This document shows, piece by piece, positions 14,629 to 62,520 of a DNA stretch of 64,000 bases (within the stretch, counting starts at the first letter, position 1; each line of letters begins with the position of its first letter). The notes under the pieces were generated by a model. That model did not search any database. It was not told the origin of the DNA and saw only the letters and a program-made list of their open reading frames with translations. The stretch is from Clostridium sp. (GTDB lineage Bacteria; Bacillota_I; Bacilli_A; RF39; UBA660): the NCBI GenBank assembly GCA_023665725.1, contig JAMPDH010000004.1, forward strand, positions 1 through 64,000, read 5' to 3'. The translations under genes and the position numbers were made by a program.

Positions 14629-15972
14629 TTAATATTTTTTACATATTATTTTTGAATCTTCCACAATTTCCTTGCTTTCTTCTTTTTGTAATATCATTTG
14701 TAAATCTTTTGTAAGAATACATGCTTGACCAACTTTATTTGAATTTGAAATAATATCTAAATAAATTCTTGCTAAATCAAATCTTTTTTTAGATAAAGTT
14801 TCATAGAAACTTTTTATGTATTCTGAAATATCAAATTTAAATTTTTCACGACTAATATAGCTAAGATAAGCCATTGGTTTTAAAAATGAAAAATCTTGTT
14901 CTATTAAACTAATCTTAATTAAATCAACTATTAAAAATTCATATTTAGATTTATTTATGCTTTTTAGATATTTTTTTAAGTTTATAGAAAAATTATCTAA
15001 ATCTTCATTTAATAAATATGTAGTTAAATCTAAAAATGTAACTTTTAATGTATTATTCCCTTGTCTTCTATTAATAGTTTCTTCCTTTTTTTGCTCAATT
15101 AACTCTATTATATTAGTAAGCAAAATATTTAAGTAATTTGAATTAGGATTTAAATTTTTACTTTCAAAATATTTAATATTTAACTCTAAAGCAAGATCAT
15201 AATTTTTTCCATCAATTGCATCATACATATCATCAGTTTCAAAAATTTCTACTTTAGGTATATTGTTTGTATTTTTAATTTTTAATATATCAGAAGATAA
15301 TGTTAAAATATATTCTTCATTAATACCTAAGCATCCTTTTTCTTGCATTTCTTCTAAATATTGGGTAATTTCACTATAGCTTTTATTATATAATAAGGTA
15401 CCTATGTTTTTTTGTATTGTTGAAATAATTCCAATTGATTGTGTTAATAATGTATATATAATTACATCTGAAACATTAAGTTCTTCCTTACTTTTTAATT
15501 CATTAAATTGAAATAAAGCTAATTTAAATTTTTTATTGAAACATGATAATCTAATTTTATTTCTTTTTTCTATTTCATTATATCTTTCATCATTAAAATC
15601 TATTTTTATATCTTTATATTTAAAAAATTTTACATATTGTTTATATTTTTCTGGAATTTCAGTTATTATATTTAATAAATATAAATAAAAATTATTATCT
15701 GAGTCATAAAATTTATTATTAATATTCATTAATTCTTCAAAATAAATAAACGCCTTTTTATAATTTTCATCTTGTATAGCAAGTAAAAATAAATAATTAC
15801 ATGTATCTATATTATTAGAATCTATTTTATAACATTTTTCAAAACAAGTAGTTGCTTTATCGTATTCCTTTTTAGAAATAAGTTCTTTACCATAATTAAA
15901 TAAATCTTTTAAACTACAACCATCTAAATCATTAATTAATAAATTATTGTTATTTAAATTTTCCTCTATCAT
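14629..15972 (-). CDS. TPR-like helical repeat protein
   Basis: About 447 aa from the ATG at 15972, which follows the upstream stop (15974) almost directly; an ATG at 15990 would overlap that stop. Residues near 25-85 look like TPRs (LFNYGKELISKKEYDKATTCFEKCYKID, then a second helix pair). The C-terminal 120 residues (LDNFSINLKKYLKSINKSKYEFLI to FKFDISEYIKSFYETLSKKRFDLARIYLDIISNS) match the middle of the neighbouring sigma-fusion protein (its residues 354-472). No signal peptide or membrane segment. TPRs bind proteins; the shared module suggests interaction with, or origin from, the sigma-fusion protein. The homologue is not otherwise recognised. Last gene of the three-gene operon. Confidence 0.65.
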   Translation of the reverse strand: MIEENLNNNNLLINDLDGCSLKDLFNYGKELISKKEYDKATTCFEKCYKIDSNNIDTCNYLFLLAIQDENYKKAFIYFEELMNINNKFYDSDNNFYLYLLNIITEIPEKYKQYVKFFKYKDIKIDFNDERYNEIEKRNKIRLSCFNKKFKLALFQFNELKSKEELNVSDVIIYTLLTQSIGIISTIQKNIGTLLYNKSYSEITQYLEEMQEKGCLGINEEYILTLSSDILKIKNTNNIPKVEIFETDDMYDAIDGKNYDLALELNIKYFESKNLNPNSNYLNILLTNIIELIEQKKEETINRRQGNNTLKVTFLDLTTYLLNEDLDNFSINLKKYLKSINKSKYEFLIVDLIKISLIEQDFSFLKPMAYLSYISREKFKFDISEYIKSFYETLSKKRFDLARIYLDIISNSNKVGQACILTKDLQMILQKEESKEIVEDSKIICKKY

Positions 15973-15973
15973 T

Positions 15974-16960
15974 TTAACTACTACCTTCATTTCTTTTAAG
16001 CATTAATTTTTTACTAGTTGACATTTTCTCCATATCAAATTCATCTGATAATAAAACAGGATACATTGTTATTATATCTTTAGTTCCTATTAAAGTTGAA
16101 ACACATAAATCATATGTTAAATTATCTTCCTTAAATCCTATAGGAAAATCCAATTTAAATCTATACATATCAGAAAGTTCAAAATGATTAGCATTTATAG
16201 TCTTAATTTTTTCTCTAGCAATTTCTAACAAATCTTTTAAATCAATAGTTTCCAGAAAACATCCATCATTAAATTGTTCTTTCTGATTCTTATGCATTTT
16301 TATATGATTTAGTAATACTTCATCACTAGAATTAAATAACCTACTAATTGTATATTTATTTTCTAAATTGTCGAAATTATAATCTTTTAATTCCCCTAAA
16401 AAATACAAAGTATATGTATACATAATATCATAATGTGCCAATAATTTTGGAGTTAAAGTTGACTCATCTATTGATTTTAATAATCTATTTGCTTCATCAT
16501 ATCTTTTTTCTAAAAAATTTAAGCAAACTAATCCAAACATAGCCTGTACATAAAATTTTTCATTTAAACATAGAGTTTCATACATATTTCTAGCAATATC
16601 ATAATCTGCAGTTTGTGTATATAATTTTGTAAGGGAAATTAATGCTTTATATTGAAAACTTGGATCTTTCATACATTCACTATAATATTTTTTACTTCTT
16701 TCAAAATTATATTCTATATTTTCAAGTAATCCATAATAAAACTTAATTTCTGTCGAATGTATTTTACTATTATTTAATATATTCCTTACTCTTGCATATT
16801 TTCCTTCTTTTATGTCAATTTTAACTAGTTTTATGCGTGCTTGATTACAAAAATCTCCATTTTTTTTGCACAAATATTCGAACCTTTTTCTTGCAGAAGC
16901 ATAGTCATAGCTATTTAAAAATATCATTGCTTCATTATAAATTTTTGATTCATTAACCAT
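15974..16960 (-). CDS. TPR-like helical repeat protein
   Basis: 328 aa, middle gene of the module, 21 bp after the sigma-fusion gene. Residues 1-200 are tandem helix pairs with TPR spacing (YNEAMIFLNSYDYASARKRFEYLCK, YGLLENIEYNFERSKKYYSECM, LYTQTADYDIARNMYETLC, LVCLNFLEKRYDEANRLL). The last 80 residues (IKTINANHFELSDMYRFKLDFPIGFKEDNLTYDLCVSTLIGTKDIITMYPVLLSDEF) form a distinct acidic/aromatic domain that I do not recognise. No export signal. Cotranscription with a sigma-like protein suggests a regulator or partner of it; that is inference. Confidence 0.65.
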   Translation of the reverse strand: MVNESKIYNEAMIFLNSYDYASARKRFEYLCKKNGDFCNQARIKLVKIDIKEGKYARVRNILNNSKIHSTEIKFYYGLLENIEYNFERSKKYYSECMKDPSFQYKALISLTKLYTQTADYDIARNMYETLCLNEKFYVQAMFGLVCLNFLEKRYDEANRLLKSIDESTLTPKLLAHYDIMYTYTLYFLGELKDYNFDNLENKYTISRLFNSSDEVLLNHIKMHKNQKEQFNDGCFLETIDLKDLLEIAREKIKTINANHFELSDMYRFKLDFPIGFKEDNLTYDLCVSTLIGTKDIITMYPVLLSDEFDMEKMSTSKKLMLKRNEGSS

Positions 16961-16981: not shown

Positions 16982-19537
16982 TTAGTTTAATTTTTTTTGC
17001 ATCACTACTATTGCATCATCAATAAATTTATTTATTTTTTCTTTATAAAGTAATAATACCTTCTTTGTTATCTCATTTACTTCGCTTTCATCTATTCCTA
17101 AGAAGTTAGCAATTGATTCTGTAGAAAAATATTTATCATCAATATAACCTAGTTTTAAACAAATTATAAGTGCTTCTTTAGGAGTTAATATATTTAACAT
17201 TTCTTTAAAAGATGTTGATTTTATTAACTCTAACATTTTAATATAATCTTCTTTTTCTAAATTTAAAACTTCTTTATTTTTAGAACTATCTTTTAAATTA
17301 ATTGGTATAGATTCTTGAACTTGATTATTAATTACTTCATTTTCACAAGATTCTTCTATATTTATTTTAATCTCATTTAAGTCATTAGTTTTAATTTTTG
17401 TTCTGTCCTTACTCGTTTCATAGTTATCTACCTTTATCAATCTTCTCATCTTTGGAAGTAAATTAGCATAAAATTTTGCACTTTCTTTTTTTCCAAACTT
17501 TGGATCAGTTTTTGGATTATCTAAATCATTTCCATTTCTTAAATCAAACCAAGTTTTCTCTTCTTCAGTTAATTTACTAATAACCCTACTATTAACTAAT
17601 TCTTTGTCATAACAATTTAAAAGTTCATATACTGTTCTTAGTCTTTTATGTTTACCTTGCTTAATTTCTTTCTCATTTTTATTTGCTTGTTCATTAATTA
17701 CTTTATTTTCAGAAGGTTCTTCTACATTTACTTTATCTTCAACTGCATTTAATTTATCAGTTTTAATTATTGGTCTACTTTTATAATTATCTACCTTTAT
17801 CATTCTTTTCATTTTTTGAAGCAAATAATCATTAAATCTTACTTTCTCATCTTTTCCAAACTTTGGATTTGGTTGTGGATTATCTAAATCGTTTCCATTT
17901 CTTAAATCAAATAAAATTTTCTCTTCTTCAGTTAATTTACTAATAACTCTTCTATTAACTAATTCTTTGTCATAACAATCTAAAAGTTCATATACTGTTC
18001 TTAATCTTTTATGTTTATATTGTTTAGTTTCCTTCTCATTTTTATTTACTTGTTCATTAATTACTTTATCTTCAACATTTTCCATTTCATCATCTTCTTC
18101 TCTTTCATAAATATTTCCTATAGATTTATATAAAGCATGTTGCAAATTCCCTGTTAGAATTTTAGAAAAACCTAACTCATTTGAATTTTTAATTATATTT
18201 AAATATATATTTGCTTCGTCTAATCTATCTTCTTGTAAAGTTTCATAAAAATCTTTTATATATTCCGAAATATCAAATATAAAATCTTTACTATTTATTT
18301 CGTTAATAATACTTAATACTTTTGTGAATTTATCATCTTTTTCTATTACACTTATATTAATCAAATTACGTATTAATGGTTCATATTTGATTTTATCAAT
18401 ACTATTTAAGTATTTATTCAAAGTTATAAATGCATTATCTAAATCTCCTTTATCTAAATATTTAATAAAGTCCATATAACTATTTCCTCCTTCATTTATC
18501 TGTGTTATAGCGTAAGAGTTCTCGCTAATATTATTACTTTGTGTACTACTATCTTCATCTTTATCAGTAATTTCATCATACATATTTTCACTATTCAAAT
18601 TGTTTGAGTTTACTTGTTTTAAAACTTCTTCCATTTCTGGAATTAAAACATTATAAAAATAATTTTTATCATTTTCATTAAAACATTTATCCGTTATAGC
18701 AAGTTCTAAATCATTTCCATAGGTTTCTTTTATAAAATTTTTACTTTCTTCTTTTAATAAATCAATTACAACATTAGTTTGATTTTTTATACATGGTAAA
18801 ATATCATATACTGTGTGTAGTTTTCCACATTTGTTTTCATAATAATTTATATTATTCGTGTTGAATTCTCCTTTTGTTTTGTTATTTTGTTTATCATAAT
18901 TTTCTAATTCATCTTTCATTAATTTTAAATTTTTACTTATTATTCTACTCACATAGCTTCGAGAAATGTTTAATTTTTTCCCAATTTCTCTATGATTTAA
19001 TTGTTTTCTATTATCTAAACCAAAATATAGCTTCATAATCTCTTTATCTCTATCTTTAAGTTTATCTAAAATAGTAAACATTTCTTTTATTTCTTCTTTA
19101 TTTTCGATATTAAAAATAAACTCTTCAGATTTATCTTCTAACACATCTTCGATAGTAATATTTTCTTCTTCATTTATAAATTCATTTATGCTTATACCAT
19201 TTATATATTTATTATATTTTCTAAAAGACATGAATAATTCATTTGTAATACATTTCGATGCATAAGAGGAAAATAAAATATTCTTTTCTATATCAAATGT
19301 ATCAACACTTTTTATTAAACCAATTAAGCCAATAGATTCTAAATCATCCTTTTCATTAGTTAAAGAAGGATTTTTAAATATTAAATTGCTTACTATTTTT
19401 AAAACTAATCTTATGTTATGTTTAATTATCTTTTCTCTAGCTTTAAAGTCCCCATCCTGTTTAAATTTTTCAAATAAAGAATTTAATTCTTCTTTTGATA
19501 ATTTGTGAGGTAATTTTTGACTATTTAATAAACTCAT
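16982..19537 (-). CDS. Sigma-70-type factor fused to repeat modules (851 aa)
   Basis: Residues 1-210 are a sigma factor of the short sporulation type (like SigE/K/F/G): region 2 (EKIIKHNIRLVLKIV, DDLESIGLIGLIKSVDTFD, ILFSSYASKCITNELFMSFRK) and region 4 with a helix-turn-helix (HREIGKKLNISRSYVSRII). Typical factors end here. The protein continues with a module at 239-307 (TVYDILPCI to LIPEMEEVL), a helical segment at 354-472 shared with the gene at 14629, two near-identical modules at 508-582 and 629-703 (RLRTVYELL, LTEEEK, FDLRNGNDLDNP, FGK, LLxKMxRxIKVDNY), and a second region-4-like HTH at 765-848 (LTPKEALIICLKLG, TESIANFLGIDESEVNEI). The LTEEEK-LRNGND core resembles sigma region 4.1 without the recognition helix. 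SD AGGTGGGG. Promoter TTGATA-18-TATTAT upstream. Targets unknown. Confidence 0.75.
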   Translation of the reverse strand: MSLLNSQKLPHKLSKEELNSLFEKFKQDGDFKAREKIIKHNIRLVLKIVSNLIFKNPSLTNEKDDLESIGLIGLIKSVDTFDIEKNILFSSYASKCITNELFMSFRKYNKYINGISINEFINEEENITIEDVLEDKSEEFIFNIENKEEIKEMFTILDKLKDRDKEIMKLYFGLDNRKQLNHREIGKKLNISRSYVSRIISKNLKLMKDELENYDKQNNKTKGEFNTNNINYYENKCGKLHTVYDILPCIKNQTNVVIDLLKEESKNFIKETYGNDLELAITDKCFNENDKNYFYNVLIPEMEEVLKQVNSNNLNSENMYDEITDKDEDSSTQSNNISENSYAITQINEGGNSYMDFIKYLDKGDLDNAFITLNKYLNSIDKIKYEPLIRNLINISVIEKDDKFTKVLSIINEINSKDFIFDISEYIKDFYETLQEDRLDEANIYLNIIKNSNELGFSKILTGNLQHALYKSIGNIYEREEDDEMENVEDKVINEQVNKNEKETKQYKHKRLRTVYELLDCYDKELVNRRVISKLTEEEKILFDLRNGNDLDNPQPNPKFGKDEKVRFNDYLLQKMKRMIKVDNYKSRPIIKTDKLNAVEDKVNVEEPSENKVINEQANKNEKEIKQGKHKRLRTVYELLNCYDKELVNSRVISKLTEEEKTWFDLRNGNDLDNPKTDPKFGKKESAKFYANLLPKMRRLIKVDNYETSKDRTKIKTNDLNEIKINIEESCENEVINNQVQESIPINLKDSSKNKEVLNLEKEDYIKMLELIKSTSFKEMLNILTPKEALIICLKLGYIDDKYFSTESIANFLGIDESEVNEITKKVLLLYKEKINKFIDDAIVVMQKKLN
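17429..18016 (-). repeat. Duplicated 225-bp module inside the sigma-fusion gene
   Basis: Two in-frame copies (17792-18016 and 17429-17653), 363 bp apart, code the near-identical KHKRLRTVYELL to KVDNY modules. Even the acidic linker before each (KVINEQ-NKNEKE) is repeated, pointing to recent internal duplication. Confidence 0.8.
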
Positions 19538-61510: not shown

Positions 61511-61536
61511 AGAAAAAATGCCATATAAGGCATTTT
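61511..61536 (-). terminator. Terminator of the CotD-like gene
   Basis: Minus strand AAATGCC/GGCATTT arms with TTTTTTC; overlaps the stop codon. Confidence 0.75.
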
Positions 61537-61819
61537 AGTTTTGGAAATTATTGCATCCACCACAGTCGTTATTAACTACAACATTTTCTTCACTACAAGT
61601 ATATTGTGGTGTGTAAGTATGATTATAGATATGTTTATTTACAACATGTGTATGAATTGGACAACAATGTGGAACTTCGTGATAGAATTCTTTTTCCACG
61701 CATTTTGTTATAGTTGGCTCCATGATTGGGCTTTCCATTTGAGGACGATCACAGCAAGGATTTCCAATATTCATTCCAAATCCACGTTGGCGATTACAAC
61801 ATTTATTATTAAATAGCAT
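61535..61819 (-). CDS. CotD-like spore coat protein
   Basis: 94 aa rich in Cys and His (NKCCNRQRG, NPCCDRP, HCCPIHTHVVNKHIYNHTYTPQYTC, CGGC). The HxHxxxxHxYxH pattern is that of CotD-family coat proteins, which are laid on the inner coat late in sporulation. SD AAGGGGG. A CATATTATA element (61843-61851, minus strand) could be a SigE/SigK -10 box. Identification is by composition and motif. Confidence 0.7.
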   Translation of the reverse strand: MLFNNKCCNRQRGFGMNIGNPCCDRPQMESPIMEPTITKCVEKEFYHEVPHCCPIHTHVVNKHIYNHTYTPQYTCSEENVVVNNDCGGCNNFQN

Positions 61820-61917: not shown

Positions 61918-62520
61918 TTACTTCTTTTTTACTTTGCGCTTAGTAATTCCTATTGAATCATCTATATAATCAAATAACATTTCTTTAAATCTAATCCAAA
62001 ATTTATCCATTATTTTTTTTACATCATTTTGTTCTAATGAAAAATGTGTTTTAGTAGAATTTTCCAAATAATGTTTATCTTTAAAATAACCTATTTTTAA
62101 TTTAATAATATAAGTTTCAACTGGTGAAAATGTATCTAATATTGGTTTAATATCAAATACTTTTGTAAGGTATAATAATTTTTCATATGGATTAGATGGT
62201 ATATCTTTTAAATCTTTATTTTGATTACTACTATATCTTTCTTCCTTTAATAATTCCTGCATTTTGGGAATTAAAATATTATTAAATTCCTTTAATTCAT
62301 TTTTATATGTAAACTTACTAAAGTTATTTGAAAGTACAATACCTACAATATCTAATAATGTCCTTTCGTGTTCATCTAATTTATTATACATTTTAATTAT
62401 TTGATATACGCTATAATCCCCAAAGTAATTAAACAAAATACCATAAGTCTTACTACTTAATGTAATAAAATCCTTTTTGGGTATATATTGGTAATTAAAA
62501 CTATTTATATTTTTTTTCAT
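61918..62520 (-). CDS. Paralogue of the sigma-fusion modules
   Basis: 200 aa. Residues 35-92 (YSVYQIIKMYNKLDEHERTLL to FNNILIPKMQELL) match the TVYELL...LLPKM modules of the 851-aa sigma fusion. Residues about 125-190 (LDTFSPVETYIIKLKIGYFKDKHYLEN to FKEMLFDYIDDSIG) match its C-terminal region-4-like domain (LTPKEALIICLKLGYIDDKYFS to INKFIDDAIV). There is no sigma region 2, so it cannot be a full sigma factor. It may bind DNA or polymerase, or regulate the fusion. SD AGAGGAAAG. Promoter TTGACT-17-TAATAT; a Spo0A box lies 80 bp upstream. Confidence 0.65.
   Translation of the reverse strand: MKKNINSFNYQYIPKKDFITLSSKTYGILFNYFGDYSVYQIIKMYNKLDEHERTLLDIVGIVLSNNFSKFTYKNELKEFNNILIPKMQELLKEERYSSNQNKDLKDIPSNPYEKLLYLTKVFDIKPILDTFSPVETYIIKLKIGYFKDKHYLENSTKTHFSLEQNDVKKIMDKFWIRFKEMLFDYIDDSIGITKRKVKKK

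Follow-up and report, generated by a model that had tools for sequence, protein, structure and literature searches.

Within the Bacillota, the sigma factors SigK and SigE stand for the superfamily to which the core of the protein described here also belongs. In known sigma factors, region 4.1 contacts the beta flap of RNA polymerase. Extended ECF sigma factors are built as a sigma core followed by an extension and show an association with TPR proteins, and TALE and TALE-like repeats are near-constant units which differ from each other at few positions per copy (PMC4066763). Here we analyzed an 851-residue sigma protein which shares features with each of these systems. We hold it about evenly balanced that its gene encodes an alternative sigma factor with a multiplied region 4, in which the added modules would act as nucleic-acid-recognition repeats and extend promoter recognition.

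The window (the whole stretch of DNA that was analyzed, 64,000 nucleotides) carries the sigma factor gene P0001 at 16982..19537 on the minus strand, with an ATG start and a product of 851 aa. The plus strand of 16982-19537 is rich in stops when translated and the intact reading frame is that of the minus strand, which was missed by the original prediction of a sporulation-type sigma core with three modules; the core and the modules themselves were all found. The core (residues 1-212, 18902..19537, minus strand) contains regions 2 and 4 and scores above the Pfam cut-offs of the sigma-70 family (PF04542, Sigma70_r2, 32.6 bits against 24; PF04545, Sigma70_r4, 52.4 bits against 24.1). Residues 2-216 match the NCBIfam model PRK05803 (SigK-like) with E=9e-48, at a score of 162.5 bits against the curated SigK cut-off of 252. 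Judged by its sequence, the core is a sporulation-type sigma factor closest to SigK/SigE which falls under both equivalog cut-offs. Separate SigE-, SigK- and SigF-like genes, named from their context and similarity, exist in the same genome, and spoIIGA adjoins the SigE-like gene. The genome also encodes another sigma factor to which repeats that may bind nucleic acid are appended (L023 in G000:C28, 4473-5663, minus strand), a protein of 396 aa whose core is followed by two helicase-associated (HA, PF03457) domains.

The remainder of the sigma protein holds the three modules and a C-terminal domain, all encoded on the minus strand. Module M1 (residues 239-310, 18608..18823) is a divergent copy with an acidic last helix. 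Modules M2 (residues 511-584, 17786..18007) and M3 (residues 632-705, 17423..17644) were recovered by the module profile and in the predicted structure, and their long last helices (residues 562-586, 17780..17854, and residues 683-706, 17420..17491, respectively) align with the recognition helix of sigma factors. The C domain (residues 756-845, 17003..17272) is region-4-like and includes a helix-turn-helix. M2 and M3 are the closest pair, and since they differ at 17 of 74 residues (77% identity) the earlier wording "near-identical" was somewhat overstated. Ten of these 17 differences lie inside the last helix, a concentration which the original prediction did not contain. M1 and M2 are 32% identical (E=9e-5). 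The net charge of the last helix is -3 in M1 as against +3 and +5 in M2 and M3. Having lost the basic helix, M1 probably does not serve as a reading unit. A core-less protein of 200 aa with one module and one C domain, recognized by profile match, is also encoded in the window (61918..62520, minus strand). The gene adjoining it (61535-61819, minus strand) encodes a Cys/His-rich protein of 94 aa which is CotD-like (spore coat; E=0.0007, just under the Pfam cut-off).

Two TPR-like genes follow the sigma gene in tandem, as had been pointed out before. TPR-like protein 1 (328 aa, 15974..16960, minus strand), for which the Pfam TPR matches are under the cut-off, is encoded 21 bp downstream of the sigma gene, and the gene of TPR-like protein 2 (453 aa, 14629..15990, minus strand) overlaps it by 17 bp. 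A simple scan, which gives weak evidence, found no terminator-like site between the sigma and TPR genes, and the three genes may be cotranscribed. Both TPR-like genes also stand beside the module-bearing sigma gene at related loci (L057, L058 and L072); at L069 the TPR pair is present and the nearby module is a broken fragment only. The segment of residues 346-480 (18098..18502, minus strand), formerly described as a helical segment, is a copy of the C-terminal domain of TPR-like protein 2, either taken from it or shared with it. Residues 318-437 of TPR-like protein 2 match it, with about 51% identity over sigma residues 349-472. The segment lies between M1 and M2, and the TPR gene is two places downstream of the sigma gene. 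The other sigma factors of the family which were examined for this segment do not have it.

Some further TPR-related genes were seen during the survey. At L102 (6771-8546) a core-less protein with an M-C unit (module and C domain) continues into TPR repeats; its gene comes immediately behind a sigma-M-C gene whose M-C is almost the same. The relative of TPR-like protein 2 at L057 (6201-8771) has about twice the length of the window copy, with weak matches to an AbiEi-type N-terminal domain and to R3H. A protein of 268 aa adjoining the SigK-like gene (L022, 5628-6434, minus strand) contains a stretch which, on visual comparison, is similar to the TPR-derived domain of the window sigma protein.

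The C domain matches region 4 of T. maritima RpoD in sequence (E=5e-5), and the model containing it matches sigma region 4 in Foldseek (probability 1.0, E about 0.1, rmsd 1.7-1.8 A over 52-55 columns). On this profile match and the similarity of the modelled fold to solved region 4, the C domain is homologous to sigma region 4, in agreement with the predicted C-terminal helix-turn-helix of this type. For the modules, an iterated profile recruits sigma region 4 itself, and because such a search is circular the homology is argued from module-only profiles alone. The main match of these profiles outside the family is the region 4 of housekeeping SigA; of three outside-family matches which were inspected, two proved to be region 4 of SigA and one that of a SigF-like factor. 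The best PDB match is region 4 of S. aureus RpoD (E=0.003), which bears out the likeness claimed between the LTEEEK-LRNGND core and region 4.1. The profile-profile alignment of module and region 4 by hhalign (P=2.4e-7, probability 89%) covers the whole module with a gap of 6 residues at helix 3, and it supports the proposed relationship across the domain. Single modules stay under the cut-offs of the Pfam region 4 families (PF04545, PF08281), with a best E of about 0.003 and weak matches for 7 of 15 members. The very large Pfam and PHROG totals of long arrays are sums over repeats and mostly meaningless.

Structure prediction gave the modules a confident fold, and the structure search with an array gave no significant match. 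In the AlphaFold2 model of the window protein the modules have pLDDT of about 90-97, each with one long last helix, and the linkers are disordered. No helix is found between helix 2 and the last helix in the module models, so the four-helix helix-turn-helix fold is not reproduced. The AlphaFold2 model of an array has confident modules with uncertain packing between them (pTM 0.45), and, searched as one chain with this packing, it had no significant Foldseek match in the PDB and viral libraries. A superhelix is accordingly not predicted for these arrays, and the kinship of the modules is drawn from profiles and not from fold. By this measure the modules look like derivatives of region 4 without helix 3.

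Modules were found by profile search in 101 of 386 genomes sampled from the bacterial family of the window, which is more than chance would give. The M-C unit was found nowhere outside this family in a phylum-wide sample of genomes, and in a class-wide sample the module matches outside the family were weak. The idea of a lineage-specific sigma system is therefore supported, as M-C is confined to one family among the genomes sampled. In GTDB species genomes 51 loci were detected, and all of them come from uncultured lineages of gut or rumen with names such as Bacilli, Tenericutes and Erysipelotrichaceae; these names, together with the spoIIGA gene beside the SigE-like gene (compare PMC10868615), suggest that the carriers belong to the order RF39. 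Viral contigs, phage records and plasmid records were searched as well and gave no viral or plasmid relatives.

The architectures consist of a SigK-like or RpoD-like core followed by 1 to about 14 modules and a C domain, and core-less proteins of modules and C domain also occur. The profile search further brought out very long arrays in relatives which the original prediction had missed, with 1548 aa at L056 and with 1864 and 1568 aa at L162. The assemblies are metagenomic, and G070 appears to be broken inside its array. At L162 (G160:C13:184500-203500) four large genes are adjacent. One encodes a protein of 595 aa in which a stretch is region-4-like, another a sigma-like protein of 949 aa, and the remaining two encode the arrays, which are very divergent. 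The seven-module sigma protein of L164 (828-3815, minus strand) has M1/M5, M2/M6 and M4/M7 alike and looks like the product of a duplicated higher-order unit. A tree of poor resolution hinted at swapping of M-C cassettes between SigK-like and RpoD-like cores; grouping by a single core type was not rejected (AU p=0.14), so swapping is not claimed.

The copies within arrays were compared on a ruler given by the 72-residue L085 module. The most variable positions between copies of young arrays are 58, 59, 53, 54 and 50, in addition to position 72 which is the linker edge. All five lie in the last helix, which is aligned with the sigma recognition helix, and in the hhalign register module positions 50, 51 and 54 fall on R584, E585 and R588 of sigma-70, residues which make contact with the -35 element. 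The copies thus differ mainly at a few fixed positions, which is a TALE-like pattern. These positions were noticed first and tested afterwards, so only held-out and independent-array tests are counted as confirmation. When each array was left out in turn and the top positions were taken from the other arrays, the p values were 0.0008, 0.0022, <0.0001, 0.02 and 0.055; with the five positions fixed, the loci of seven further arrays, unused for choosing them, gave a combined p=0.0001. Among 53 single-module proteins, 35 have Gly at position 58 and 33 have Lys at position 50, and the variation at 50 and 58 is hence a property of arrays; positions 53 and 54 differ between species as well. Nonsynonymous and synonymous changes inside arrays number 51:5 at the five positions against 126:87 elsewhere, which speaks for the recognition reading.

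The charge of the module is also divided between its helices, with a mean of +2.6 in the last helix and -2.5 in helices 1-2. Basic residues (K/R/H) make up 33% of the five positions against 15-18% expected, which is about a twofold enrichment. A depletion of acidic residues at the variable positions was considered as evidence and is striking against other surface positions, yet their frequency equals the mutational expectation and it was not used.

These observations may be joined in one mechanism. The core (residues 1-212) would bind RNA polymerase and the -10 and -35 elements like other sigma factors, as its homology suggests. Each module would be a shortened region 4, in which helices 1-2 correspond to region 4.1, helix 3 is reduced to a loop and the long basic last helix takes the place of the recognition helix, while the C domain would be a further region-4-like unit. 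In arrays the scaffold appears almost constant and the exposed side of the last helix varied copy by copy; each module thus probably recognizes a short nucleic-acid sequence of its own, which would most likely be DNA on the upstream side of the promoter. The inserted TPR-like domain and both TPR neighbours may have a regulatory role. It is a more tentative proposal, somewhat short of an even case, that the modules form a new class of modular and evolvable recognition repeats for nucleic acid, every copy having a separate target which it reads with positions 50, 53, 54, 58 and 59; with similar caution this reading may be extended to the sigma factors and core-less array proteins of one gut-bacterial family, with repeats derived from region 4.

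It is also possible, at a distinctly lower probability, that the modules bind protein (the flap of RNA polymerase or a TPR partner) in the way region 4.1 does, with the variable helix tuning the partners. The part of the module corresponding to region 4.1 is indeed its most conserved and most sigma-like part, TPR proteins adjoin the gene, and the sigma protein carries an inserted domain of TPR origin. Against this, the variable helix is basic with its variable positions enriched in K/R/H, and RNA polymerase is constant within a cell, which leaves differing copies in one protein unexplained.

A slightly less probable explanation is relaxed constraint, under which duplicated modules, freed from reading DNA, would retain their fold and let the positions of the recognition helix drift. 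An acid content equal to the mutational expectation at the variable positions agrees with it. The nonsynonymous fraction of 0.91 is only a modest excess over the neutral value of 0.80 (p=0.025). In a neutral simulation calibrated on synonymous changes, which assumes a star tree and no gene conversion, two of the five recent arrays (L062 and L075) have no position departing from neutrality. Drift is opposed by L085, where position 58 is C, S, K, H, R and Q across six modules with few changes elsewhere and lies above all 4000 neutral simulations, by position 50 of L056 (p=0.0002) and by position 58 of L073 (p=0.009); the L085 and L056 positions survive correction for about 30 tests. The twofold enrichment of basic residues and the persistence of intact arrays of up to 1864 aa also speak against it.

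That the region-4-like copies are decoys which titrate anti-sigma proteins, for example of phage, or mask the core is improbable: phage proteins binding region 4 are known, one of them (PDB 4g6d, with S. aureus sigma-A domain 4) is among the matches and core-less arrays occur (L056, L162), but the examined arrays sit among housekeeping genes with no phage-defence neighbourhood, viral and plasmid relatives are lacking in the records searched, and the PADLOC MzaA match falls on the sigma core in the window protein, while in an array it covers weak stretches resembling region 4. A defence-system reading of that MzaA match was rejected because in the window protein it lies on the core.

The reading as a sigma factor with multiplied region 4 may now be set against the known systems. 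Compared with SigK/SigE, the window protein adds about 640 residues beyond the core. It is not an ECF factor, as its best family is SigK/SigE, and its C-terminus has no TPR, unlike ECF42, in which about 200 residues of TPR extend the C-terminus of an ECF core. In extended ECF factors the extension is a regulatory domain and does not consist of region 4 copies; in the window protein the TPR-like part stands between two modules. The likeness to TALE is one of sequence variation alone; the modules are of about 72 residues, have an unrelated fold and origin, and have no known code. Sigma-70 region 4 would be the source of the C domain and, judged by profiles, also of the modules, which lack helix 3; no description of repeats made from it, or of this family, was found in the open-access journal papers searched. 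Should the modules bind DNA, multiplication of its promoter-reading domain would have equipped a sigma factor with additional reading heads, and in some relatives up to about 14 of them would have been assembled into arrays. Such modules would constitute a new scaffold for modular recognition and show, as is rarely seen, how promoter specificity can be extended. The few positions per module would then offer a concrete, testable code. Even without DNA binding, the family represents an extensive remodelling, specific to one lineage of common gut bacteria, of a domain central to transcription. Proof that the modules read DNA individually would make the system a categorically new one.
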